Part shown: positions 13,982 to 29,682 of the stretch, one piece after another
How positions within the stretch are numbered: the first letter of the stretch is position 1
Layout: the number at the start of each line of letters is the position of its first letter
Virus record (IMG/VR): IMGVR_UViG_3300044998_000753
Span: 1 to 34,258 of that record
Strand: one strand, 5' to 3'
Origin: a virus
Length of the DNA: 34,258 nucleotides
Program-made: the position numbers and the translations under genes
Notes under the pieces: generated by a model
The model's input: only the letters and a program-made list of their open reading frames with translations
What the model was told of the DNA's origin: nothing
The model's database searches: none

Positions 13982-14415
13982 GCGAGTGGCAGGCGGAACT
14001 TCTAACAGATGAAAAGTTGGAAATCTACTGGCCTTTCATCCAGCAGGAGCTTCAGCGTGTGCCGCATATTTGGTCGCGCCGCTGGACGATCGAGTGGTTC
14101 TGGCAGGCGGCGAATAGTGGGTTTATGCAGGTTTGGGGGCTCGGCCCGCAGAATGCGATTCATGTTGTGGCGTTTACGCAGATCGCGGTTTATCCGGCGG
14201 CGAGGGCGATTAGTATAACTCTGCTTTTCGGTCACGGGGTGGATAAGGCGATACCACTTCTGTCTGCCACCCTGCAGCAATTTGCCCGGTCGCAAGAGTG
14301 TGAATTTATCGAATGTGTCGGACGTGCCGGGTGGACGAAAAAGTTGCCAAGTGTGGGGGCGAAAGTGTGTGGAATGGCCTTCGAGCAACAGGTTGAAAGC
14401 GCGAGGATGCATTGA
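13978..14415 (+). CDS. GNAT-like internal core protein (T7 gp13-like)
   Basis: This 145-residue protein resembles phage GNAT-fold proteins such as T7 gp13. Evidence is the pattern WGLGPQNAIHVVAFTQIAVYPA, with a hydrophobic strand pair, then a helix and the C-terminal phrase CEFIECVGRAGWTKKLPSVGAKV. It lies directly ahead of the ejection genes, as gp13 does in T7-like phages. No clear acetyl-CoA loop (Q/RxxGxG/A) was found, so it is likely structural rather than an active acetyltransferase. The ATG at 13978 gives an ATGA overlap with the previous gene. Confidence 0.55.
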   Translation: MSEWQAELLTDEKLEIYWPFIQQELQRVPHIWSRRWTIEWFWQAANSGFMQVWGLGPQNAIHVVAFTQIAVYPAARAISITLLFGHGVDKAIPLLSATLQQFARSQECEFIECVGRAGWTKKLPSVGAKVCGMAFEQQVESARMH

Positions 14416-14416
14416 G

Positions 14417-15271
14417 ATGGGTGGGCCGAAAGAGACTACACAAAAGACAACGTATGAGTTGAGTCCGGAGCAGCGAGAATTGATGAATCTCGCTATGCCG
14501 AATATCCGACAATTCGCTGCGATGACTCCGCAGAGGTATGGTGGAACGCAAGTTGTTGGGTTTAATCCCGCGCAGCGAGATGCGCAGAATATGGCGCTCG
14601 GCGCGGCGGGAACGCAGAATCAGCTTGCGGGAAATGCCGCTGGCGCCCTCCAACAGTTTTTCACTCCGGAGTTCTGGAACCCGGAAAACAATACAATGCT
14701 CCAAGGAGCGATCAATGCAGCAACTCGCCCGATCATGCAGTCGTTTCGGGAGGAGACGCTTCCGGGCTTGAGAGGTGAGGCGGTAAGTACAGGGAACTTT
14801 GGCTCCTCGCGACAGGGGATTGCGGAGGGCGTGGCTGGCGGGCGCGCCGCGCAGGCTGTTGGAGATACCGCCGCGAAACTCGCACAGAGTACATACGATA
14901 CGAATACGAGAGCGGTGTTGCAGGCGGCGGGATTGCTTCCCACGGTGCAAGATGCGCAGCTGGCGGGGGCGAGAACTACCGGTGCCGTCGGTGATGTGAG
15001 GCAAGCCTTGCAGCAAGCACGTCGGAATGAAGATGTGCAGAACTTTATGTTCGATCAGTATGCGCCGTTTATGCAGAGTCAGGAGATTATGCGACTCCTC
15101 GCCGGACTGCCTGGGGGCACGAATGTCACCACCGGCACGGGGCCGACGACAGGGCCAACACAACTTCTCGGTGGCGGACTCGCGGGAATGCAACTTGGCA
15201 CGGCGCTTGGTGGTCCGGTCGGTGGTGGACTCGGCGCGCTCGGTGGGGCGCTCTTGCCCCTACTCTGGTGA
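14417..15271 (+). CDS. internal virion (ejection) protein
   Basis: This 284-residue protein has a composition rich in A, G, Q and N with long amphipathic helices. The phrase LSPEQRELMNLAMPNIRQF opens a helical region; NFGSSRQGIAEGVAGGRAAQAVGDTAAKLAQSTYDTNTR is typical of phage ejection proteins. The C-terminus (about 240-284) is Gly/Leu-rich and hydrophobic (GGLAGMQLGTALGGPVGGG), suited to membrane insertion. I infer a T7 gp14-like role in forming a DNA-translocation channel. The ATG at 14417 is two bases after the previous stop. Confidence 0.6.
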   Translation: MGGPKETTQKTTYELSPEQRELMNLAMPNIRQFAAMTPQRYGGTQVVGFNPAQRDAQNMALGAAGTQNQLAGNAAGALQQFFTPEFWNPENNTMLQGAINAATRPIMQSFREETLPGLRGEAVSTGNFGSSRQGIAEGVAGGRAAQAVGDTAAKLAQSTYDTNTRAVLQAAGLLPTVQDAQLAGARTTGAVGDVRQALQQARRNEDVQNFMFDQYAPFMQSQEIMRLLAGLPGGTNVTTGTGPTTGPTQLLGGGLAGMQLGTALGGPVGGGLGALGGALLPLLW

Positions 15272-15828: not shown

Positions 15829-16500
15829 ATGATCGAGGCATTTCTTCCGCAAGATGCGCAGGAGAGGTGGAACGATCCGCGTATGCAGGCGGCGATGTTG
15901 CAGCTTGGAATTTCGCTGATGCAGCCAACGGGGGTTGGGCAGAGTGTAGGTGGGCATGTTGGGTCGGCGATTGGGCAGGCCGCTGCGGCCGCCGGTCGGC
16001 AGGAATCCTCCGAACTTAAACGGCAGCAAGAGGACCTCAAAACCGCTGCGACGATTGAGAGAATGGAGAATGCGAGCGAGAGATTGAAGCTTGCTGGAGA
16101 AAATGCCGCTCTACGTCAGCAAAGTGGAGCGGTGAAGTCGATGAATGAGATACTCGCGGAAAGGCGGCGGGCGCGACAGGGAGTGGGAAAGGCGGCGGAT
16201 GAGGAGGCGAAAGCGATTCTCAAACAGTTGAATGATGAGGCGCTTCTGCCGGATAATATGAAGAATCCGAACCTTGTGAGATTTAGGGGGATGCAGCAGA
16301 GTGAGATCGCTGCCGCGCTGGCGAATGATCCCGAGTTTAGAAAGCGGCGCGCCGCGGTGATGGGAGATGAAGAACCGCAGCAGGCGGCGGGCGCGCAGAG
16401 TGCGATTGCGAATGCTCGTGCCGCAATAGCAAGGGGCGCGAATCGTGAGGCGGTTATCCAACGGCTCCGGCAGTATGGGATTGATCCAGGAGGATTGTAA
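15829..16500 (+). CDS. internal virion / ejection coiled-coil protein
   Basis: This 223-residue protein is mostly helical: residues about 55-100 (SSELKRQQEDLKTAATIERMENASERLKL) form a probable coiled coil, and about 110-155 another. The start has RWNDPRMQAAMLQLGISLMQP, then a Gly-rich stretch GVGQSVGGHVGSAIGQAAAAAG. Position between ejection genes and the giant protein suggests a T7 gp15-like role. The stop overlaps the giant gene (TAATG), and AGGAGG precedes that gene's start. Confidence 0.55.
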   Translation: MIEAFLPQDAQERWNDPRMQAAMLQLGISLMQPTGVGQSVGGHVGSAIGQAAAAAGRQESSELKRQQEDLKTAATIERMENASERLKLAGENAALRQQSGAVKSMNEILAERRRARQGVGKAADEEAKAILKQLNDEALLPDNMKNPNLVRFRGMQQSEIAAALANDPEFRKRRAAVMGDEEPQQAAGAQSAIANARAAIARGANREAVIQRLRQYGIDPGGL

Positions 16501-19500
16501 TGTCGATTTCGTTTGATGATCTCATTCCGAAGCAACCGGGGGCCTCAGCGGCCCCCTCGCCGCTTTCACCCGAGGAGAGGGATATCGCTATTCGCACGAT
16601 ATATGGCGAAGCCGCGAGGGAGAGCCCGGAGGGAAAAGCGGCGGTAGCGGCGGTTATTCGTAACCGTTTACGCACGGGAAGGTGGGGCAAGAGTGTCAGC
16701 GATGTGGTGTTGGCGCAGAATCAATTCGAGCCGTGGAATACGCCAGAGGGACAGGCGAGGATGGAGGCACTTCGTGCCGATGATCCCGTGTATCAGGAGA
16801 TAGGAAGCTACGTCGATGATGTGTTCGGAGGAAGAAGGCCAGACCCCACGGGAGGTGCTACCCATTTCTTCGCGCCCCGTGCTCAGGCTGCCCTCGGTAG
16901 AAATGTGCCGGCGTGGGCGAGAGGACAGCAAGGGCGGCCGATTGGAAATCACACGTTCTACGCCCCGGAAGGAAGAGTCACGGACAGCGGGCCGAACTTC
17001 GATGACCTTGTGCCTGGAGGCGCGCCGAGCGGTGCGCAAGGTGGAGAAAGCGGCATCTCGTTCGAAGATCTCATTCCTCAGAACCCGGCGGCACAAGGAC
17101 AGGCGAGGGCTGTTCCAGGAGGACAAGTAGCGCAGTTCGGTTCTCCCGGCGCGGAGCTTGTTCAAGCGGAATGGCCCTCGCCGCCCGTTCCGCAGGCGAC
17201 GCAAGAGAATAGTCTTGCTGCCGATGCAATTAGGCAGCTTGGTGGTGGAGGTTGGAAAGGGCTTGGAAGTACAATTCGCGGCGTGGGTGCCGCAGCGCAA
17301 GTTCTTGGTGAATACACCACGACGCCAATTATTAATGCTCTACTCGGCACTACGTTTAAGACTCAGAATCTACTTGATCCTGCGGCAGATGTTGTTGGTG
17401 GTGTTGGTGAGGGGTTGCAGTCGAGAATTGATCCTGCAACAAAACAGATTATTAAAAAGAGTACACCGCAAGGTGATATCTTACGGCCGGAAACTTGGAG
17501 TTTTGGGGTTAATCCAAGTTTGCGGGGTTATGTTTTCCATGGGTTGGATGTTTTTGGTCAAATGCTGCCAACGGTCGCGGCCGCTATTGGCACATCAGGG
17601 CTCGGGCAAACGGCGTCGATGATTGCTGGAGCGGGAGTTGGTGGAGCGCAGGGTGGCGGTGCGGCGGTTGAAGAGGCGCGTCAGATTATTGATACGTTAT
17701 TCACCCAAGGAAAATTGGCCCAAACGTCGCCGTTGTACCATAGACTTTTGACTGAGGGAAAATCTCCCGCGGAAGCATTAGAGGAAACGAAAAGAAATGC
17801 AGAACTTGCTGCCTTTCTTCTCACAACTCCAGTGTCTGCTCTCGGCGGCGCGGCTACTGGGGCTATATTAAACCCTGCTGTACGGCTTGCTCCTGGGGGG
17901 CGTTTGATACAGGGTGTGGTGAAGGGGGTAGCGGGAGGGTTAGAAGAGGGTATTCAAGAAGTTGTCGAATCCGTACAGACTAGACAGGGAGTAAATTTGG
18001 CGACTGGAACACAAATTCCAGTAACAGAGGGAACGTTTGGCGATTTTGTTCTAGGGGCTTTGGGAGGAGGAACTACTGCCGCCGCTGGTGGGGTTGCTAC
18101 TCGCCCCCTTATGCCGGCGCGCCGCCCGGAGCTGTCGCCCGAGGTATTGGAGCATTATCTGCAAACGGCGAGCCAAGGTCCCGTGCCGGATACGGTTATA
18201 TTCTCGGCGGCAAGCGCCGAGCCGAGTCCGATTTGGTATTCGCAAGTGCGGCGGGTTATTGAGGAGAAAGGTCCGCAGGCGGCGAGCGGCGCGCAGTGGT
18301 TGGCGACGTTGGAAAATACGCCGGGGGTTAAGAGGGAAGAGATTAGCGATCTCGGTCTTGACTCTTATTTTTTGAATAGGGATAGAGTTACGAAAAATGA
18401 GGTTATTGGATATTTGGAGGAAAAGCAGATAGATGTGAAAGAGGTACTTCAAACGAGTATTGAGGGAGATCCTCGAGTTGGAGAATTGCGAGCGATGGCG
18501 CGCGGAGATGTGCCGTTCGATCGTGCTCGACATACAGAACTCATTGCGGCTCTAGATGGTATTCGTGATCCGCAGTATGAGGACTACATTGCGCCGGGGC
18601 CGCAAAAGAATTATCGCGAGTTACTCTTGATGACGCCTCGTAATCCCGAAGTTGTTCAAGCTGAACTAGAAGGAGACGTTGAGCGACAACGAGATTTACG
18701 AGAAACAGAATTTCGCGGCAGCCATTGGGATATGCCGAATGTAGTGGCGCATGTTCGTTCGACGGAACGAGTGGATAATACGAATACTCCTGTGTTGCAT
18801 ATTGAGGAGATTCAAAGCGACTGGCATCAACAGGGAAGGAAACGGGGGTATCGCGGAGCTCCTTTAACACCACAAGATATTGATTTCGAACAAGTTTCGT
18901 TGTCGGATGCTCAGACTGATTTAGGGTCTATGATTGATTCACATCTTGTACCATATAGACAGGCACGCGGTATCGACCTTAATGCGCCAGTTATACGTTA
19001 TCGCTTAAAGGGTTCAACTTTGGGGTGGAGTTACCTTTTTGATCCGCAAACAACCAGATATGATGCTTTTACAGAAGGCGTAAATACGATAGGAAGTGAA
19101 ATTTTTAATGAAGCGAAAAGACGTCAAGATGGTGTAGTGGTTGGTCCGTTCAAGACGGCGTGGCCGGAGCTTGCGTTTAAGAGGATGCTTCGGTGGGCGG
19201 CGGATAATGGGTATAAACGAATTACGTGGACCACGGGGAAGCTCGCGGGAGATTATGCCGCGGGCGGCTTACCGGCGATTCATGCGGCGCGGAAGGGGCT
19301 TGTTGAGTTCTATGATAAAATTGTGCCGGGAATTGCGAAGAAGTGGGCGAAGAAACTTGGAGGAAGTGTCGGCACGACGATGATTCCCGTGCCGCGAGCG
19401 GCGCCGAGGCTTGCGGTTGGATATGGTACCGATGGAACCTTTGCTATTTATGATGAGAATGATTTGATTATTGCTGATGGTTTCAATACTCGGGGGGAAG

Positions 19501-22500
19501 CTTATAATGCCAAAAGGGAAATTATGAACCGTACTACAAATAAGGATACTCCGGTTTGGTATATAGATATTCCGCCGACGGCGCAGTCAATTGTCCGGCG
19601 TGGTCTGCCGATGTATTCGGCAACGGGTCCGAGGACGGCGGAGTTTGTTGCGCCGGCATCAAGCGGCTCGGCGCAGGCGCCGCAGAATATGCGCGATCCG
19701 CAATACTTGCGCGCCGGGAGGAAAATGGCCGAGGTACTTCAAAGTTTGATTCGGCAAATGAAGATTGATGCGTCGATTCGAATTCATCTTTCAGACGCGC
19801 ATCCAGATTATCACGGGTGGGTTACTCCGAGGCGCGACGGCAGCTATGATCTGTATGTGAATCCGACGACGCATGTTAATCCGGGAGCCATGTGGGCGAC
19901 GGCGGCGCATGAGTTCGGTCATATTGTAATGTTTGAAAAGTTCGCGAAGGCGCCAGATAAGGTTAAGGTGGAAATCGAGGCAGCGTTTGAGCGGTGGCGA
20001 GAGGCTAATTCTAGCCCTAATCGAAACATCCAACAGTTGCTGCGGACGAGAGATAATGCGATTGTTAATTATTATAATATGAGAGGGGATGCACAGTTTC
20101 CTCTTTATATGCTCACTCCGGAGCATAGAAAGTATTATAGTTCATTCGAAGAATGGTTCGCGGAACAGGTTGCTCGTTGGGCGACGACGAGTGATTGGGC
20201 GCTAACTGTTGTTGATAAGTTTTTTGAGAATCTAGGTAAGTGGGTTCGGAAAGTTGTGGAGGCAGCGTATAAGAAATTCGGATTGGAGTTTAGAGCCGAG
20301 CCCGTGATGCAGCAATGGTTGGATTCGTTTATTACTGAAGGTCCGGCCTTTATGCACGAGTTGATGCCGGAGCTTCATCAACGAACGAGGGAGGCGAATC
20401 AGGGGGCTCTTGATGCGACTCTAGGGGATGGTGTGGTAGAGGCCGCGCCGCGCGCGCCCGGCACGCAGACGATAGAAGATGCCACGTATCAGGTTGTTGA
20501 TGGTGGCAGAGAGACGCATGGGCCGCAGATTCGCGAACGCGCGGCGCATGTGGATAATTGGCATAAGTATTATAAGTATTGGAAGGGGCTAGACCAGCTC
20601 GCGGCGGTTAATCCGAATTTTGCTCCATTGCTCCGGTATAAGGAGAGAATGGATGAGATGCATAATGAGACGAGTCAAATATATGACAAGGCGATTGAGT
20701 TGCTGAAGGCTTGGCGCTCGTTAGGTAAGAAGAGGGGGGAAAGTATTGTCGCCGCGCTGGATGATATTGTGAATATGCGGTATCGTACGGATGATGAAAT
20801 TCAAAGGGGGATCGCGCGGCATCCGACGCAGGAGGAGCTTCAGGCAATATATCGAGAGCATCGAGTGGATCAAGAATCGGCGCGGATGATTCAGAGATTG
20901 AATCAGATGTTCGATGCATTTTTGCAATTAACGGCGGATAATGCGAGGGCGGAGGCGCAGAGGTTGATTACTGATCCGCAAAAACTCGCGGAACGCCTAG
21001 ACAAGATTAATACGCAGGTGAGGAATTTGCGCCGGCGGCCGTATTTTCCCTTCTATCGTTTCGGCCGGCACTTCGTCCATGTGAGGGATGCCGCGGGGAA
21101 TACTGTGCATTTCGAAACGACGGAGCGGAGGGGATTGCGTTCCGCGGAACGGATGCAGGAGATTAAGGCGAAAGAGCTTCGAGAGGCATTCCCGGATGCG
21201 ACGGTTGAAGTGGGGGCGCTGCCGGAGGTGGCGGAACCGTTTATCGGAATGCCGCCGGCTCTTTTAGAATCTATCGCAAACGAGTTGAATTTGAGTCAAG
21301 AGCAAAGGGATGCAATCCAACAGTTGCAATTTGAGATGAGTCCGGCGAATAGCTTTAAGCATAGGTTTCAGCATAAGAACTATATGCCTGGATATTCGAT
21401 GGACTTCAAACGGGCGTTTGCAAATTATTTCTTCTACGGCGGCAAGCACTATGCGAGGACGAAGTATGCGTGGGAACTTCGAGGATTGATCCGCGCCGCG
21501 AGGGGGGTTGGAGGAAATAAAGCCGCATATGTTGCAGACTATATGCAGGATCATTTAGAGAATACGGTACTGAATGCGAAGGGGGATATTGGAGGGGTAA
21601 AAGCGGCAGCCTTTATTTGGTTCCTCGGATTCTCTCCCGCGGCGGCAGCGATTAATATGTCGCAAGTGCCGCTTGTATCGTATCCGTTTCTTGCCGCGAA
21701 GTTTGGAGGAATAGGTTTTGGGGATGCAAGGGCGACAAGAGCTCTCCTCGATGCCATGCGAATTGAGACGTTTCTGCCGAGGAATAAGTTTAAGGAAAGG
21801 GATGATTTCCTCGCGCGAGCGATGGAGTATGGAATTACAACGGGCCGCATAACGGATACGCAGGCGCATGAACTCGCTGGTGCGACGCAGGCGGAAAACT
21901 TGTTTGTGGGTTTCGGGGGAAATGCGGCGCAGAGGGTGGCGCAAACGATTCTGGAAAAATCGGCGTGGATGTTTGAGAAGGCGGAACAGTTTAATCGGCG
22001 CCTTACATTCCGTGCCGCGCTTGATCTCGCGCAGGCGCACCCGAATGCGCAGGCGGTAAAGGATGCGACGAATTTGTATAAGGATGAAATATTGACGTTG
22101 CGGAATAAGGGGTTTACTGAAGCGGAAGCTGCGGCCGTTGTTACGGCGATTCATGCGACGATGGAGACGCAGTTTAATTATAATCGGTGGGCACGGCCTC
22201 GATTTGTTAGAGGCAAATTTACTGGCACCCTTTTTATATATAAGAAGTATTTGCAATCGATGCTTGCGGTGATGGGGCAGAATAAGTCTGATGTGATGCC
22301 AAGGGCATTTCTCATGATGGCCATGATGGGAGGCCTCATGGGATTGCCGGGGATGGAGGATTTGACGGAAATCCTAAAGGCTCTCGGACATCATTTATTC
22401 GGGAGAGATTTCGATCTGAAGGATGAAACGAGGGAGTTTGTGCTGGAGCAGTTTAATGGTCGCGTGCCGCCAGATATCGTGCTCCATGGGCTGGCGCGAA

Positions 22501-23342
22501 GGGGCTTCGGCATACCTGCAATGTTGGATATGATGGGAGGAGTTTCAACGGGGCGCGGACTGGGAAGGGGTTTGCATCCAGGAGCAGGGCACTTCGTTCC
22601 CGCGCCGAGCTTTGATTTGTCCCGCAACTTATCTATGGGCCAGCTTTCGCCGATACCTCTTGAGGCGTTGATCGGGCCGCCTATGGGGCAGCAGCAAGCA
22701 TGGATGCAGATGAATGCACTTCAACGAGGGGCCGGGCCGGTTTTCGGTACAGGCTTTGCCCTCTTTCATGCGCTGCGGGATTTTAATTCCGATCCTACGG
22801 ATTTTAAGAGGTGGGAAAGGATTATGCCGAGGGCGCTTGCGAGTGGGTCGAGAGCGTATCGGAGTTTCTCGGAGGGGAGAGAAAGGACGCGCGGCGGGGT
22901 TAATGCGGGGAGTACGGTGGTGCGGTATGATCCGAGAGATCCAGAGCAGATGGCGGAGATTCTCGCACAAGCAATGGGCTTCGCGCCGACCCGACTTAAT
23001 GCTCGTTGGGAGCAACTGATTGAAGAGAGAAAACAACAGGCCTATTACGATACCCAGCGCGCGATGCTCTTGAGGCAAATGTTCGATGCGCGCCTCGGAG
23101 GAGATGAGAGGGAACAGGAGAGGGTTGTAAAGGCGATACAGAGGTTTAATTCGAGATTGCCGCCGGAGGCGAGATCGAAATCCATTACGGGGGAGGTGGT
23201 ACGAAGGTCGATGGCGAGCCGGATGCGGGAGCGACAGGCGCGGGAGACTGGAGTTCCGACGCAGCGCACGGCACGGCCGATGGCGGAAAAGATTCGGCAG
23301 ATGTATCCGGAGGCGCAGATTGATCTCCGAGTGGTGCGTTAA
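16500..23342 (+). CDS. giant polyvalent ejection protein with SleB-like hydrolase
   Basis: This 2280-residue virion protein has the architecture of phage large polyvalent proteins thought to enter the cell with the DNA. Residues about 24-157 are a SleB-like cell-wall hydrolase: IRTIYGEAARESPEGKAAVAAV with E37 the likely catalytic Glu, then QFEPWN and HTFYAPEG. Motifs F-D/E-D-L-I/V-P recur at 5-10, 167-172 and 188-193. Residues about 235-540 are Ala/Gly-rich helices, candidate membrane-interacting segments. About 565-1040 carry signatures seen in such proteins: EEIQSDWHQQGRKRGY, PFKTAWPELAFKRMLRW. HEFGH (1137-1141) is a zinc-peptidase motif. About 1690-2090 form a helical region with FNRRLTF near 1832. 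The role at entry is inferred: cutting peptidoglycan, then acting in the cell. AGGAGG precedes the ATG. The gene ends six bases from the facing gene. Confidence 0.8.
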   Translation: MSISFDDLIPKQPGASAAPSPLSPEERDIAIRTIYGEAARESPEGKAAVAAVIRNRLRTGRWGKSVSDVVLAQNQFEPWNTPEGQARMEALRADDPVYQEIGSYVDDVFGGRRPDPTGGATHFFAPRAQAALGRNVPAWARGQQGRPIGNHTFYAPEGRVTDSGPNFDDLVPGGAPSGAQGGESGISFEDLIPQNPAAQGQARAVPGGQVAQFGSPGAELVQAEWPSPPVPQATQENSLAADAIRQLGGGGWKGLGSTIRGVGAAAQVLGEYTTTPIINALLGTTFKTQNLLDPAADVVGGVGEGLQSRIDPATKQIIKKSTPQGDILRPETWSFGVNPSLRGYVFHGLDVFGQMLPTVAAAIGTSGLGQTASMIAGAGVGGAQGGGAAVEEARQIIDTLFTQGKLAQTSPLYHRLLTEGKSPAEALEETKRNAELAAFLLTTPVSALGGAATGAILNPAVRLAPGGRLIQGVVKGVAGGLEEGIQEVVESVQTRQGVNLATGTQIPVTEGTFGDFVLGALGGGTTAAAGGVATRPLMPARRPELSPEVLEHYLQTASQGPVPDTVIFSAASAEPSPIWYSQVRRVIEEKGPQAASGAQWLATLENTPGVKREEISDLGLDSYFLNRDRVTKNEVIGYLEEKQIDVKEVLQTSIEGDPRVGELRAMARGDVPFDRARHTELIAALDGIRDPQYEDYIAPGPQKNYRELLLMTPRNPEVVQAELEGDVERQRDLRETEFRGSHWDMPNVVAHVRSTERVDNTNTPVLHIEEIQSDWHQQGRKRGYRGAPLTPQDIDFEQVSLSDAQTDLGSMIDSHLVPYRQARGIDLNAPVIRYRLKGSTLGWSYLFDPQTTRYDAFTEGVNTIGSEIFNEAKRRQDGVVVGPFKTAWPELAFKRMLRWAADNGYKRITWTTGKLAGDYAAGGLPAIHAARKGLVEFYDKIVPGIAKKWAKKLGGSVGTTMIPVPRAAPRLAVGYGTDGTFAIYDENDLIIADGFNTRGEAYNAKREIMNRTTNKDTPVWYIDIPPTAQSIVRRGLPMYSATGPRTAEFVAPASSGSAQAPQNMRDPQYLRAGRKMAEVLQSLIRQMKIDASIRIHLSDAHPDYHGWVTPRRDGSYDLYVNPTTHVNPGAMWATAAHEFGHIVMFEKFAKAPDKVKVEIEAAFERWREANSSPNRNIQQLLRTRDNAIVNYYNMRGDAQFPLYMLTPEHRKYYSSFEEWFAEQVARWATTSDWALTVVDKFFENLGKWVRKVVEAAYKKFGLEFRAEPVMQQWLDSFITEGPAFMHELMPELHQRTREANQGALDATLGDGVVEAAPRAPGTQTIEDATYQVVDGGRETHGPQIRERAAHVDNWHKYYKYWKGLDQLAAVNPNFAPLLRYKERMDEMHNETSQIYDKAIELLKAWRSLGKKRGESIVAALDDIVNMRYRTDDEIQRGIARHPTQEELQAIYREHRVDQESARMIQRLNQMFDAFLQLTADNARAEAQRLITDPQKLAERLDKINTQVRNLRRRPYFPFYRFGRHFVHVRDAAGNTVHFETTERRGLRSAERMQEIKAKELREAFPDATVEVGALPEVAEPFIGMPPALLESIANELNLSQEQRDAIQQLQFEMSPANSFKHRFQHKNYMPGYSMDFKRAFANYFFYGGKHYARTKYAWELRGLIRAARGVGGNKAAYVADYMQDHLENTVLNAKGDIGGVKAAAFIWFLGFSPAAAAINMSQVPLVSYPFLAAKFGGIGFGDARATRALLDAMRIETFLPRNKFKERDDFLARAMEYGITTGRITDTQAHELAGATQAENLFVGFGGNAAQRVAQTILEKSAWMFEKAEQFNRRLTFRAALDLAQAHPNAQAVKDATNLYKDEILTLRNKGFTEAEAAAVVTAIHATMETQFNYNRWARPRFVRGKFTGTLFIYKKYLQSMLAVMGQNKSDVMPRAFLMMAMMGGLMGLPGMEDLTEILKALGHHLFGRDFDLKDETREFVLEQFNGRVPPDIVLHGLARRGFGIPAMLDMMGGVSTGRGLGRGLHPGAGHFVPAPSFDLSRNLSMGQLSPIPLEALIGPPMGQQQAWMQMNALQRGAGPVFGTGFALFHALRDFNSDPTDFKRWERIMPRALASGSRAYRSFSEGRERTRGGVNAGSTVVRYDPRDPEQMAEILAQAMGFAPTRLNARWEQLIEERKQQAYYDTQRAMLLRQMFDARLGGDEREQERVVKAIQRFNSRLPPEARSKSITGEVVRRSMASRMRERQARETGVPTQRTARPMAEKIRQMYPEAQIDLRVVR

Positions 23343-24590: not shown

Positions 24591-24626
24591 AAGTGGGCAA
24601 GGGATGGCGCTACCCTTGCCCCATTT
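24591..24626. repeat. GC-rich intergenic hairpin of the GGGCAAGGG type
   Basis: GGGCAAGGG (24595-24603) pairs exactly with CCCTTGCCC (24613-24621) around a nine-base loop, with further A-T pairs outside. It lies between the polymerase half and the helicase gene. It resembles the hairpins at 7193-7230 and 34172-34212. There is no long T-run on either strand, so termination strength is doubtful; RNA processing is an alternative. Confidence 0.6.
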
Positions 24627-25395
24627 ACGCAGCCTCCTTAAGGTCCACTTTCTTGCAGTCGCCCCAAGATGTTTCGCTCATAGCTAGGCCCCACGGAATT
24701 ATAAGAGGATCATCATAGGGAATCGGTACGGCTAATGCCTCGACGATACCCTTATAGGTCCAGCCATTATGATGTTTTGGCATTTGGAATACAAGAGAGT
24801 CGTGTACTTGTAATAGGTCCTCACAATAGGGGTATTTTTCGAGAAGCTGCATTTCCCCATAATACGTCGTAAGGCCGACAGTACTCTGAGGTATCCATGC
24901 AAGGGCCTCGGTGAAGCACTGGTCGGGCCGGTCGAAATAGACGCGGCGGAAACCGAATTTGTTGTAAACGGTTTTCGAGGAGTCAAGGGCCTTTTGAACG
25001 CGGCCGTGGAAGTTGTGTTTGATGCCCGGATGGAGGCTGAACCAACGGCGCTGGAAGTCTTCGGCCTCGCGCACGGTCCAGCCGAGGACCATAGCCATCG
25101 CCCTTCCAGAGCCACCATAATTCGTTAAATGCACCGCCTGTTTGCATTGTTTGCGTTTGCTCTTCCACGCATGACTCTGAGGTTCGAGTCGGGCGAAGCT
25201 CGCCCCCCACATGTCCTCGGCGTTCTTCGCATGAACATCGAGACCCGCGCGGAATGCCGCTTTTAGGTCTTCATCCTCTGCCTCCCACGCCACCACCTGG
25301 GCGTCGGCGCCGGCGAGGTCGGCGTCGAACAACACATAGCCGGGATCGGGAGTGAAGAGTTTACGAACGTTTGGTAAAACTATTTTCGAAGTCAT
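24625..25395 (-). CDS. DNA polymerase family A, catalytic (palm/fingers) half
   Basis: This 256-residue protein is the C-terminal half of a split family A polymerase. It opens with KIVLPNVRKLFTPDPGY, which in intact enzymes follows the NLQN motif. Motif A is FDADLAGAD with catalytic D26; the usual Glu of motif A is Asp here (D31). The fingers helix has R81, K85 and Y93-G94, spaced as R754, K758 and Y766 of E. coli Pol I. Motif C is QVHDSLVF with D199. All catalytic residues are present, so it should be active when paired with the first half. Start at 25395 is chosen because AGGA lies eight bases upstream and upstream residues are unlike polymerases. It overlaps the winged-helix gene by 35 bases. 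Confidence 0.9.
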   Translation of the reverse strand: MTSKIVLPNVRKLFTPDPGYVLFDADLAGADAQVVAWEAEDEDLKAAFRAGLDVHAKNAEDMWGASFARLEPQSHAWKSKRKQCKQAVHLTNYGGSGRAMAMVLGWTVREAEDFQRRWFSLHPGIKHNFHGRVQKALDSSKTVYNKFGFRRVYFDRPDQCFTEALAWIPQSTVGLTTYYGEMQLLEKYPYCEDLLQVHDSLVFQMPKHHNGWTYKGIVEALAVPIPYDDPLIIPWGLAMSETSWGDCKKVDLKEAA

Positions 25396-25708
25396 GCCAC
25401 TTGTCCTTCTTGCGGGCAATATACTTATCAGTTGACGCGTTTTGTGTTTTCCCCTTGACTACACGAATCGTGTCGACGACAAGGGGGACGTTGTTGGATA
25501 AAAGGGCGCGCCGGATTCTATGGATATGTACGGCAAGAGAGCGCTGGCTGACAGGAAAGGCTGTAGTGTCGACGCCGCACGGGTGGGCGTTTAGGAGCAT
25601 ATCGAGTATAATGGATTCGGCGGGACGGAGTTTGAGCCAGCGGTACATGAGGCTGCGAGGGAAATAGGGCGCGCCGCAGTTGGGGCAGCAGGAGTTTATT
25701 TGGATCAT
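25361..25708 (-). CDS. CPxCG plus OmpR-type winged-helix DNA-binding protein
   Basis: This 115-residue protein begins with a CPNCG knuckle (CCPNCGAPY) and continues into a winged-helix domain like the effector domain of OmpR regulators (LRPAESIILDMLL, then SLAVHIHRIRRALLSNNVP and a wing VVDTIRVVKG). There is no receiver domain. Only one Cys pair is visible, so a full zinc ribbon is doubtful. A DNA-binding regulatory role is inferred. It starts with a four-base ATGA overlap with the dUTPase stop and lies between the two polymerase halves. Confidence 0.7.
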   Translation of the reverse strand: MIQINSCCPNCGAPYFPRSLMYRWLKLRPAESIILDMLLNAHPCGVDTTAFPVSQRSLAVHIHRIRRALLSNNVPLVVDTIRVVKGKTQNASTDKYIARKKDKWHDFENSFTKRS

Positions 25709-26154
25709 CTGCCGGTGCTCCCAAATCCGCCATCACTGCGGGTGGTTTCGTTTGGGTCAATATGGGGGACCTCATTGAAAGTTGCTCCCATTATGTCGTC
25801 GAGGACGAGGATTTGAGCGATGCGATCTCCGTGCTGCACGTAGTATGACTCGATGCCGCCGTTGAAGAGGAGAACTTTGATCTCGCCGCGATAGTCGGCG
25901 TCGATTACGCCGGGACTATTAGCAACAAAAACGGATTTCATCGAGAGACCGCTTCGTGGGCATACTAAGAGGCCCGAAGGGGAGCGGAAGCGAAGCCCGG
26001 TCGGCACGGCACGGGTCATGCCGGGAGGGATTAGCATATTATTCGCTCTATTGCCGTCGGTTTTGATAAAGGCGTGGATGTCGAAGCAGACGCTGAAAGG
26101 CGTCGCGCGATATGGCGCCTTGACGTCGGGGTAGAGTCGTTGGAAGTCAATCAT
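25705..26154 (-). CDS. dut: deoxyuridine triphosphatase
   Basis: This 149-residue trimeric-type dUTPase hydrolyses dUTP to dUMP and pyrophosphate, keeping uracil out of DNA. All five motifs are visible: motif 1 CFDIHAF (23-29), motif 2 PRSGLSMK (66-73), motif 3 GVIDADYRGEI (82-92), motif 4 GDRIAQ (109-114) and motif 5 RSDGGFGSTGR (139-149). The start at 26154 is chosen because GGAG lies six bases upstream and the ATG overlaps the polymerase stop by eight bases; an upstream ATG at 26160 would sit one base from the site. It is placed inside the split polymerase locus, whose first half carries a uracil-glycosylase-like domain. Confidence 0.93.
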   Translation of the reverse strand: MIDFQRLYPDVKAPYRATPFSVCFDIHAFIKTDGNRANNMLIPPGMTRAVPTGLRFRSPSGLLVCPRSGLSMKSVFVANSPGVIDADYRGEIKVLLFNGGIESYYVQHGDRIAQILVLDDIMGATFNEVPHIDPNETTRSDGGFGSTGR

Positions 26155-27913
26155 CTTCATCTCCGGTGCTGAGATTTTGCAGGTTGGTGCCGCGGCCGAA
26201 TACATTTGTTGAGGAGGAGAGGCGGTGGGTTTCCGTGCCGCCCGGATTGAAGGAGCATCGGATGCGAGAGTCGGAGTCGAGGGACATATTGATAACGGTG
26301 CGTGCGGTGTCGGCGGATTCGAGCGTGCCGAGCCGAGTTAAGAGGCCGGACCATTCGGGATACCTTTTGAGCCACTCGTTGCGGCCTTCCTTGCCACTCG
26401 TTGGGCGGCCCGTTTTTCTATTCATAATGACAGGAAGTCCGAGGATGTCATGTAGAATGGCTTTGGTTTGCTTCGGGCTCTTATACCATGCGGCGCTTTT
26501 CTTGCCTTTGATTGTCCCTTCGGGAACCATATCTTGTGGAATGATGGATAGGATTTCCTGTTCTAATGCTCCGAGGGCCGTGCTGAGTTCCATGGAGAGA
26601 TGCACGCGGCGGGATGTATCGAAGCGCATCCCACGGGACATCTTGCGGAGGCATGACTCGTTGATCTGCATTTTGAAATTCATCTGCTCCTGCATATTAT
26701 AGTGTTGCAAGAGGGTGCGTTGGACGTTGGCGCATTCCCACGTATTTACGAGGTCTTGGCAATTGTAGAGCCAGAGTTGCTTCGGGTCGCCCTTTAAGTC
26801 CCATTCTTTCCCATCATCCTTCCAATACCAATAGTATTTGCAATAGAGACTAGATAGGTAGTCGAGCCCCTTCGGGGTGCCGGGGAACATGACGTTCTGC
26901 GCGAGCATGGTGTCGAAAGAGAGGCGAGGTGTAACGCCGAGCCAGTGTTGGAAATATTGAGTGTCGTAGATAAAGTTTTGTCCTTCGATGAGAATATTCG
27001 GGTGCGAGTTGATTTGACGTAATAACGATATAACCTCGGCTTCATCTTCAGGGGACCAGAAGGAAACCAATTCCCCATCACGCTTATCAATGAAGGGCAC
27101 GCACATTGCAAACGATGTCGAGTCCGTCAATCCGACGCAAGTAATAAATCCTCGCATTGTTTCGATATCTTCGGCGAGCCGTATTTTATTCCCCGCATTC
27201 GCTTGGGCGAGCCAGGATTTGATCCTGCTGCGGAATTGCTGAAGGGTTGGCGGAGCGAGGAATACGGGTTTCGGATTCGGACGCCAATCATTCCGAAGCG
27301 CGAGGGGCACGCGCGCTTTTAAGTCATGAACGGTCACGGCGCGAAGGTCCCATTGTCGCATAATGGCGGCGGGATGGATTATCGGGAGGAGTTTCGTAGT
27401 AGAGTATTCGAGGGAGTTATAATCTTTTAGCATATACCACATACTCCCGCGCCATTTTGTGATGCCGCCAGGAGTTACGCGCCCCTGCGTTTCGGGGGAG
27501 GGACGAACGGGAGAGCTGCAATCGGTTAGTGCCCAGAGGGCATAATTGCCAACCGCTATTATGAGTTTGCGGGGAAAGGAGTTTATTTGGTCGTAGAGAC
27601 GCTTAAGTTCGGCAATGGCAAACGCCTCAGGGTGCTGGCCGCGGAGAGATGTTTGGGCTTCAGCCTTGGGGGAGAAGAAGCGCCAGGCTTCATTATTCTG
27701 TGGACGCGCCGCGATGGTGTTTGTTACGAGGCATGACATTCTGTCGATGCCACTTTCTGCGAGCATACGATTCAACTCATTGCCTGATGCGCCGACGAAG
27801 GGGCGCTCGCGATTAGCTTCCTCTGCGCCCCAAGCCTCGCCGACAATTACAATGTCGGCGTGCCGCGGCCCGCTCGTGCCGTACCAGAGATCACGCGATT
27901 GTTCCGTTTGCAT
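26147..27913 (-). CDS. UDG-like/3'-5' exonuclease/polymerase N-terminal half
   Basis: This 588-residue protein is an SPO1-type DNA polymerase fragment. Residues about 19-200 are a family 4/5 uracil-glycosylase-like domain with GEAWG (25-29), RPFVG (36-40) and the HPA motif (180-182). A 3'-5' exonuclease follows with D249/E251, N313/Y316/D317 and Y383/D387, so it looks intact. The polymerase part has TETHRLSSS (560-568) and ends right after NLQNLS (577-582) with an unrelated acidic tail (TGDEDD). Motifs A, B and C are missing and lie in the gene at 24625-25395. Start at 27913 has AGAGG five bases upstream; it overlaps the methyltransferase by 23 bases. Whether the UDG domain is catalytic or structural is unknown. 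Confidence 0.88.
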   Translation of the reverse strand: MQTEQSRDLWYGTSGPRHADIVIVGEAWGAEEANRERPFVGASGNELNRMLAESGIDRMSCLVTNTIAARPQNNEAWRFFSPKAEAQTSLRGQHPEAFAIAELKRLYDQINSFPRKLIIAVGNYALWALTDCSSPVRPSPETQGRVTPGGITKWRGSMWYMLKDYNSLEYSTTKLLPIIHPAAIMRQWDLRAVTVHDLKARVPLALRNDWRPNPKPVFLAPPTLQQFRSRIKSWLAQANAGNKIRLAEDIETMRGFITCVGLTDSTSFAMCVPFIDKRDGELVSFWSPEDEAEVISLLRQINSHPNILIEGQNFIYDTQYFQHWLGVTPRLSFDTMLAQNVMFPGTPKGLDYLSSLYCKYYWYWKDDGKEWDLKGDPKQLWLYNCQDLVNTWECANVQRTLLQHYNMQEQMNFKMQINESCLRKMSRGMRFDTSRRVHLSMELSTALGALEQEILSIIPQDMVPEGTIKGKKSAAWYKSPKQTKAILHDILGLPVIMNRKTGRPTSGKEGRNEWLKRYPEWSGLLTRLGTLESADTARTVINMSLDSDSRIRCSFNPGGTETHRLSSSTNVFGRGTNLQNLSTGDEDD

Positions 27914-29237
27914 GTTGGCCTCTAAAGAGATTCGACATTGCCGTATTATATGCGCCCTCGTCGATCTCAATGCCGAGGCCGACGCGATTGCATTCTTTTG
28001 CCGCCACGAGGGTTGCACCTGAACCGCAGCAGGGGTCGAGAATAAACTCGCCCGGCAGCGTTGATACCTCGATCAGGCGTCGCATGAGTTCGACGGGTTT
28101 CTCCGCGGCGTATGTGCGTTCGTGGCGCGGCACACGTTTGACGTTAATGATGTCGGTGGGGCTTGAGATTAAGCCGCGTTCGCCTTTTGTTGCATAGAAT
28201 ATGATGTCATATGTCCGGCGCGGCCCAGCGGAGCCCCAAGGGGCGAGCCCTTCGGATTCGCTCTTTTGCCAGATGAGAGGGGTGCGAAATGGAACCCATC
28301 CCATCGCGCCGGCTTGCCTCTTAAGCCAGTCGAAATGATCGATGTCGGTGAAGATGAAGATGTTGGCACGTGGCTTCGTGATGCGAAAGCCTTCGACGAG
28401 GATGAATTTTAGAATGTTTCGTGCATTATCGGATGAGTCATCGTAGTTGTGATGATGAATGGTCCGGGCGCGAAAGCCACCGACGTTTGCGTCGATGCCG
28501 TAAGGCGGATCGGTGCAGATTAAATCAACGCAGTGGGGTTCGAGTTTGGGGAGAACGTTAAAGAGATCCGCGTGGCGGATTTCGATTAGAGGTTTCCCTT
28601 CGGTCTCCGCCGCGACGCGCCGCGCGATGATCGCGTTTAGTTTTTCCTCTTCGCGTTTAAGTACTAAGGCGTGGGCTTCGTTAAGGTTGCGAGCCTTGGC
28701 GATGGTGGGGTCGGAGAGATGCTCGGCGACGCGGACGGCGGAGTTTACGAGCTTGCGTGCCGTTTCGGGGGATTCGGTGATCTGGCCTTTGGCTGCTAAT
28801 TCGCGCCCGGTTTCGTTGAAGGTTTGAGTGGGGTTCGCGGCGAGGCGTAATTCGTGCAGCTTGGCGAGTGCTTTACAGCGGTCTTGCCAAGAGGGATCGA
28901 GCCGTTGAAAGTTTTCATCGAATTCGGCTTCGAATATTCCAACCTCATTCAACTCGGTGTTGATGTCGAGGAAGGGGATTTTACCGGGAGGGATATTGTG
29001 CCCGTTACAATGAAATGTAATGCCTTCTTTTGCAAGGATGTCGATAACGGCAGTTCTTCGGCGGCCGCCGGTTAAGACATAAGTGTCTGTCGATTGATCG
29101 TACCATCCAAAGGGGGGCTGTAAAAGTCCTCTGGCGATGATGGATGCTTTTAGATCGGAAAGAGAGGAGATGGTTATGGTGGATTCATCGCGCTGGCGCT
29201 CGCGAATCTCAAGGTCTGATCTATCAATTATTCGCAT
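27891..29237 (-). CDS. ParB-domain plus DNA methyltransferase fusion
   Basis: This 448-residue protein has a ParB/Srx-like N-terminal domain (GGRRR at 57-61) and a C-terminal N6-adenine or N4-cytosine methyltransferase. The catalytic motif DPPY is at 243-246 and the AdoMet motif (DPCCGSG, 401-407) comes after it. This order is the beta class, as in CcrM. It likely methylates phage DNA to avoid restriction. The start at 29237 has GGAG eight bases upstream. No restriction partner is encoded nearby. Gene order suggests co-expression with replication genes. Confidence 0.87.
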   Translation of the reverse strand: MRIIDRSDLEIRERQRDESTITISSLSDLKASIIARGLLQPPFGWYDQSTDTYVLTGGRRRTAVIDILAKEGITFHCNGHNIPPGKIPFLDINTELNEVGIFEAEFDENFQRLDPSWQDRCKALAKLHELRLAANPTQTFNETGRELAAKGQITESPETARKLVNSAVRVAEHLSDPTIAKARNLNEAHALVLKREEEKLNAIIARRVAAETEGKPLIEIRHADLFNVLPKLEPHCVDLICTDPPYGIDANVGGFRARTIHHHNYDDSSDNARNILKFILVEGFRITKPRANIFIFTDIDHFDWLKRQAGAMGWVPFRTPLIWQKSESEGLAPWGSAGPRRTYDIIFYATKGERGLISSPTDIINVKRVPRHERTYAAEKPVELMRRLIEVSTLPGEFILDPCCGSGATLVAAKECNRVGLGIEIDEGAYNTAMSNLFRGQHANGTIA

Positions 29238-29260
29238 AGTCGTTGCTCCTTTATTTATGC

Positions 29261-29312
29261 CTAGCTTCGCTCTCTCGCCTTCAAGGCGGCTATGCAAAGG
29301 GCAATGGCGGGG
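29261..29312 (-). other. -1 frame continuation of the ABA-sandwich protein
   Basis: The C-run (G-run 29309-29312 on +) marks the break. Reading CCC GCC ATT GCC from there restores a typical family ending, IALCIAALKARERS, and stops at 29261-29263. The ribosome site and start of the methyltransferase gene (29237) then follow without overlap, a spacing that fits a natural gene end better than the in-frame stop at 29290. Confidence 0.7.
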
Positions 29313-29682
29313 TGGCTGCATATCCAACCCATCGCGGCGGGGTTAAAAGTGGGTGATAGAGGTAGGCCCCCGCTAACCCCTGTCGCCAAACGCCGTCGTC
29401 GTATCCTTCGTTTGAGATAACCCAACGTATCCCGTCCGGCACCAGCGTAAGCGCAGCGTCTATGCTGGCGAGGGGGTTGGGCTGCTCCCCGTCAACATAT
29501 TTTTCGACTGCCCCAAACTTAGTCCAAACTACTTCTCTTTCCCCCCAACCAAAATTATGCTCCCGCACCTTCCACCCGCAAGTCAGCAGAACGTCGTCGG
29601 CTAGTTCCCTATCCTGCCACGTCGCACTCTCCAGCCTCTCTATGAGTGCCGCCAGCGCGGCCGGTTCCTTCGTGTCGGTCAT
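29290..29682 (-). CDS. ABA-sandwich-like phage protein with apparent frameshift
   Basis: As read, this is a 130-residue protein. It resembles phage ABA-sandwich-type proteins: ALIERLESATWQDRELADDVLLTCGW at the start, PLASIDAALTLVPDGIRWVISNEG in the middle, then GYAATP near the end. Intact relatives usually end with a phrase like ATPALALCIAALKAR. Here the frame ends TPPLPFA, but the -1 frame from the CCCC run gives PAIALCIAALKARERS and a stop at 29261-29263. This means either a lost base, a programmed -1 slip or a sequencing error. The 29682 start has GGAG six bases upstream. Function unknown. Confidence 0.75.
   Translation of the reverse strand: MTDTKEPAALAALIERLESATWQDRELADDVLLTCGWKVREHNFGWGEREVVWTKFGAVEKYVDGEQPNPLASIDAALTLVPDGIRWVISNEGYDDGVWRQGLAGAYLYHPLLTPPRWVGYAATPPLPFA

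Follow-up and report, generated by a model that had tools for sequence, protein, structure and literature searches.

A 2280-residue candidate ejection protein with a SleB-type hydrolase and predicted GNAT-like and zincin-like domains in a virus known from metagenomes

The giant gene and its genome setting

The window analyzed here is the whole 34,258-base stretch of IMG/VR virus record IMGVR_UViG_3300044998_000753, a single metagenomic contig. It harbors a giant gene at 16500..23342 on the plus strand (as are all features described below unless stated otherwise), for which the original prediction, made from the letters alone, had claimed a reading frame of 2280 residues. This frame is indeed uninterrupted over its 2280 codons, and an AGGAGG at 16488-16493 lies 12 bases 5' of the ATG, which in turn overlaps the stop codon of the preceding gene. 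The latter (15829..16500) encodes a protein of 223 residues without family match, which is a candidate second ejection protein on account of its position, a similar order being found in Microcystis phage Mel-JY34 and Vibrio phage VS-ABTNL-3. Further upstream, the frame at 14282..15271, whose real start is probably further in, encodes a relative of DNA-ejection proteins (phrog_4287, E 7.6e-18).

The virion genes of the window include those for terminase, portal, major head and tail-collar proteins, among others, together with a GH19-type endolysin, and are followed by a leftward block with DUF3987, a family A DNA polymerase, a dUTPase-like protein and a DNA methylase. As judged from head protein and terminase, the nearest isolated phages are Mel-JY34 and VS-ABTNL-3 (34-43% identity), and in both of them the gene order around the giant gene is conserved. 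Two further metagenome contigs (L002 and L003) contain parts of the giant gene at about 100% identity, hence the virus has been sampled more than once.

The leftward block shows some arrangements of its own. The family A polymerase (24625-28018, minus strand) is split right after NLQNLS, ahead of motif A, its halves being separated by a dUTPase-like frame (25705-26205) and by a small helix-turn-helix-like frame (25361-25708). The VS-ABTNL-3 polymerase is split at the same point, around an unrelated-looking gene of 184 residues (L155, 12887-16021), and that of Mel-JY34 is intact, with 810 residues. In the window, the frame at 26147-28018 (minus strand) combines the N-terminal polymerase half with a uracil-DNA-glycosylase-type domain (PF03167, E 2e-20), and the neighboring DNA methylase (N6_N4_Mtase; 27891-29327, minus strand) has an N-terminal part that by eye is ParB-like.

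Domains of the giant protein

From the N to the C terminus, the protein presents a SleB-type hydrolase, an Ala/Gly-rich stretch, a domain built around the motif EIQSDWH, a domain with the motif HEFGH and a helical C-terminal region of 930 residues. The SleB-type cell-wall hydrolase domain (residues 24-154, 16569..16961) matches PF07486 (Hydrolase_2) over residues 41-154 and profile positions 2-100 of 100, with E 9.6e-18 and 65.1 bits against a cut-off of 27. By phmmer, residues 16-153 align with the SleB structure 4f55 (E 8e-6), with YGEA (residues 35-38), already pointed out in the original prediction, over YGES. By analogy with SleB, we take the Glu of the YGE motif (E37) to be catalytic. 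The hydrolase looks like a lineage-specific insertion or addition, since seven relatives keep the GNAT-like and zincin domains and the C-terminus with no SleB detected: phmmer gave no match to the domain in any of the seven, and a Pfam scan of the N-terminal part of six of them gave no match either, the seventh (L084) being without its 5' end. The closest other copy found belongs to a separate 607-residue protein of another virus (L080), with 49% identity.

The Ala/Gly-rich, mildly hydrophobic stretch spans residues 341-545 (17520..18134) and has its hydrophobic peak at residues 434-457. The Ala plus Gly content, which had been noticed from the outset, amounts to 27-32% across residues 166-545. 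Residues 352-535 match phrog_2206 (virion RNA polymerase) with E 4.6e-12 over profile positions 233-418 of 3406; by sequence, the stretch is therefore akin to the N-terminal portion of the N4-type virion RNA polymerases (vRNAP), a likeness to N4 gp50 that holds at the family level.

The EIQSDWH domain occupies residues 578-1040 (18231..19619), including a helical leader. Its motif EIQSDWHQ was found at residues 770-777 (18807..18830), where it would form the end of strand beta-4 and the start of a degenerate cofactor loop. The motif had been taken for a polyvalent-protein signature; under that name, EIQSDWH turned up neither in the main text of the defining paper (PMC5512222) nor in the literature searched. 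A mere signature was rejected because EIQSDWH is the core of a predicted folded domain. The IMG/VR scan returned at least 596 relatives, 80 of which were kept, most matching in the EIQSDWH domain. The family thus covers at least 596 viral loci, with EIQSDWH as its most conserved part, and another 46 loci come from bacterial and archaeal genomes or genome bins. Sixteen positions are invariant among 53 aligned members, including H742, R753, E769, E770, Q772, S773, D774 and a downstream Trp. No Pfam or NCBIfam model matches the domain consistently, none of the LPD models in Pfam matches it, and a sequence-profile search of the PDB gave no match. The label "endolysin" of phrog_7348 was discarded, since it probably stems from other domains that those proteins contain. 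The large plasmids NZ_CP115292.1 and NZ_CP115286.1 of Pseudomonas aeruginosa show weak matches to the domain, located in a protein with the annotation LPD23. In L085 (5574-11723) the domain is a remnant without EIQSD, followed by what by eye is a second, more ordinary GNAT domain.

The AlphaFold2 model of residues 560-1340, built with 69 sequences, has a mean pLDDT of 78 and a pTM of 0.64, and in a large part of the core the pLDDT exceeds 85. For the EIQSDWH domain, the best PDB rows of Foldseek are spermidine/spermine acetyltransferases, with E only 0.05; VIA places the acetyl-CoA-binding domain of isocitrate lyase 2 on top (Z 9.0), followed by NatD, KacT, AtaT, Elp3 and TacT (Z 7-8), and the rows of both searches are mostly GNATs. 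A profile of 16 GNATs aligns in register (P 0.019), EIQSDWHQxGRKxGY coming to lie on strand 4 and the cofactor loop; the corresponding hhalign scores are insignificant (P 0.012-0.024, two control regions giving 0.27 and 0.77; probability 2-3.5%). A GNAT-like fold is therefore likely on the basis of the models, and catalysis by the domain is uncertain. The canonical R/Q-x-x-G-x-G/A loop before helix 3 is not conserved in the family, its place being taken by Q-x-G-R-K-x-G-Y and then an insertion that can reach about 100 residues, and the window copy is devoid of the nearly invariant Q..RY after strand beta-5.

The HEFGH domain (residues 1058-1340, 19671..20519) is predicted to adopt a zincin-like fold, as suggested by alignment, AlphaFold2, VIA and a weak contact with Peptidase_M78 in four of its eight members. 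HEFGH itself was confirmed at residues 1137-1141 (19908..19922); with the composition of this chain, HExxH is expected 0.05 times. It is the predicted zinc-binding and catalytic motif, and a Glu in FEEWFAEQ (residues 1216-1223, 20145..20168), E1218, is the presumed third zinc ligand on the following helix. All eight aligned sequences share H1137, E1138, G1140, H1141, E1218 and W1219, and the AlphaFold2 model with relatives places HEFGH on helix 1128-1150 and E1218 on a separate helix, 1216-1229. For this part VIA lists YbeY (Z 6.7) and Wss1 (Z 6.6), and a fold search of a viral library lists SprT-like proteins, with probability 1.00 but E 0.06; the sequence profile found only insignificant matches in the PDB. 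The original prediction had hinged on a hydrolase fold at the N-terminus or a metallopeptidase fold around HEFGH: the N-terminus belongs to the SleB family, and HEFGH falls in a predicted zincin-like fold.

The helical C-terminal region (residues 1345-2280, 20532..23339) is of the PLxRFG-protein type, being part of the region common to the F116-like "PLxRFG" proteins, and hhalign links it to H66 gp60 (E 2e-55) and PaP2 gp25 (E 1.8e-9). According to its record, mass spectrometry verified H66 gp60 as a virion component, and this homology argues for the giant as a virion protein, in line with the original claim. The AlphaFold2 model of the region is almost wholly helical, with a mean pLDDT of 68. 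The best 3 of 975 chains aligned by VIA are the core proteins of T7, E1004 and PhiM1, with Z values (7.3, 6.9 and 6.6) that are within the chance range for helical models; these alignments begin at similar target positions. Foldseek yielded nothing below E 0.5 and no T7-type core protein among the best 50, and a sequence-profile search of the PDB gave no match. A sequence link of the C-terminal or zincin regions to T7 gp16 or N4 vRNAP was rejected, since hhalign found no significant match for either region with either protein.

A repeated motif at the N-terminus

Three copies of a short motif are located near the start of the chain: FDDLIP at residues 5-10 (16512..16529), FDDLVP at 167-172 (16998..17015) and FEDLIP at 188-193 (17061..17078), with the SleB domain between the first and the second. 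Relatives display the same repeat arrangement in other letters, and the sequence differs from lineage to lineage: F(A/D)DLIP three times in L094, DFDPF/EGNPF-type repeats in L004 and L086, a GFDIP-type repeat in L091, SWDELLP in L085, LDDIDxML three times in Mel-JY34 and PWEEF twice in H66 gp60.

In a first set, 29 of 108 distinct N-termini carry a repeat whose score is reached by at most 2 of 200 shuffles. For chains longer than 1000 residues, a repeat at the 1-in-100 level is present in 20 of 68 N-termini, and in the controls it is present in 5 of 204 internal segments and in 18 of 250 N-termini taken from other frames. Giants from the later-fetched bacterial-genome loci behave alike: in 6 of 18, no more than 2 of 500 shuffles reached the score of the repeat, and none of 96 internal segments passed the 1% level. 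Of the phage records, Mel-JY34 and H66 stayed within the same limit of 2 in 500 shuffles; the shuffle test gave no N-terminal repeat for T7 gp16, N4 vRNAP and PaP2 gp25. Overall, about 30% of the giants carry an N-terminal repeat versus 0-2.5% of internal segments, counts that are not all independent because some sequences are mutually related. The window protein was tested with its SleB domain omitted, and the significance of its repeat is conditional on that choice.

The repeated motif may serve for docking or packaging. A cargo tag shared with other proteins was rejected, given that at 23 loci no other open frame showed the motif patterns close to its start. As for an N-terminal loading motif in ejection proteins, our literature search returned only the T4-type capsid targeting sequence and papers on P22 and SPN3US.

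Known systems and the proposed role

Several known systems share part of this architecture. Polyvalent proteins of phages and conjugative elements combine at least two unlike domains in one late protein, and the giant, a late phage protein that unites several different enzyme domains in its chain, is of this kind; zincin is the commonest domain among them and PF07486 occurs in a few (Iyer et al. 2017, PMC5512222), whereas EIQSDWH goes unmentioned in the main text of that paper and has no Pfam LPD match. The PLxRFG proteins of the Pseudomonas aeruginosa podoviruses H66 (gp60) and F116 are likewise giant late proteins with a homologous C-terminus, and gp60 also shares the N-terminal repeat and a virion record; however, gp60 has 3787 residues, other middle domains and no EIQSDWH match, and it carries HExxH motifs of its own that do not match the zincin profile of the window. 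In N4 vRNAP, too, a large helical C-terminal region comes after an HExxH domain (PMC12633501), but the protein carries an RNA polymerase and no EIQSDWH domain, and its zincin and C-terminal parts show no sequence match. In T7 gp16 a wall hydrolase comes at the N-terminus, as in the window protein (PMC8954989), ahead of a long helical C-terminal part; that hydrolase is a lytic transglycosylase instead of SleB, the zincin and EIQSDWH profiles do not match, and the C-terminus is without significant sequence homology. The proteins in the same gene place in Mel-JY34 (XAI96480.1, 1894 residues) and VS-ABTNL-3 (PVS_24, 1790 residues) have the zincin and C-terminal regions, but give no match to EIQSDWH, and a reading of their N-terminal sequences revealed no SleB domain. 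The overall kind of protein is already known; this set of domains together with a repeated N-terminal tag is not well described.

Probably, then, the giant is a large ejection (internal virion) protein of a short-tailed phage, of the type of T7 gp16 and N4 vRNAP, with added enzyme domains of the polyvalent kind. Assignment to the ejection class is based on the phrog_2206 match, the T7-type VIA rows, the DNA-ejection relative upstream and the shared gene place in Mel-JY34 and VS-ABTNL-3. The protein would be packed in the head, perhaps held by its repeated N-terminal motif, and would leave it at infection along with the smaller ejection proteins. The SleB domain would then open the peptidoglycan locally, the Ala/Gly-rich stretch and parts of the C-terminus would contact or cross the inner membrane, and the GNAT-like and zincin domains would reach the cytoplasm, where the zincin could either free domains by self-cleavage or cut host proteins and the GNAT-like domain could acylate, or only bind, a host target.

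Against this overall reading speak the lack of C-terminal and zincin sequence homology to T7 gp16 or N4 vRNAP, the chance-level Z values of the T7 structural match, the E of only 0.05 for the Foldseek GNAT match, the modest hydrophobicity of the presumed membrane parts and the fact that the window is one metagenomic contig. The large size, the late-gene position and the helical C-terminus would also suit a purely structural virion protein whose enzyme-like domains are relics, yet the SleB and zincin sequence motifs are intact and the neighbor genes resemble those of a short-tailed phage with ejection proteins, which makes this very improbable.

For the zincin, precedent leaves both self-cleavage and host-protein cleavage open (PMC5512222). 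A self-processing protease, cutting the giant chain at assembly or after entry and having no host target, comes fairly close to an even chance: DdrB of phage P1, which carries such a domain, is cut down to about 76 kDa ahead of packaging (PMC5512222), and the zincin of the giant is situated between its GNAT-like and C-terminal parts and is retained by relatives with both at high score, although N4 vRNAP, likewise with an HExxH domain, is packaged uncut. Somewhat less favored, but still to be reckoned with, is a catalytically dead GNAT fold that is only a binding or structural module; the replaced cofactor loop with its insertion, the missing Q..RY of the window copy and the L085 remnant without EIQSD all point that way, while the 16 invariant positions resemble an active site and not a scaffold. 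Our boldest proposal is twofold, namely that EIQSDWH marks a widespread, uncatalogued acyltransferase family injected by phages early to modify a host target, and that a lineage-specific N-terminal array of two to three motifs, co-evolving with a virion partner, keeps the giants in the head; taken together, this seems rather unlikely.

If the repeats are a loading signal, they would help to work out how very large proteins enter and exit the phage head. The EIQSDWH domain is not covered by any Pfam or NCBIfam model, yet it is present in at least 596 viral loci; should it prove to be an enzyme, many uncultured phages would have in common a factor that modifies the host early on.
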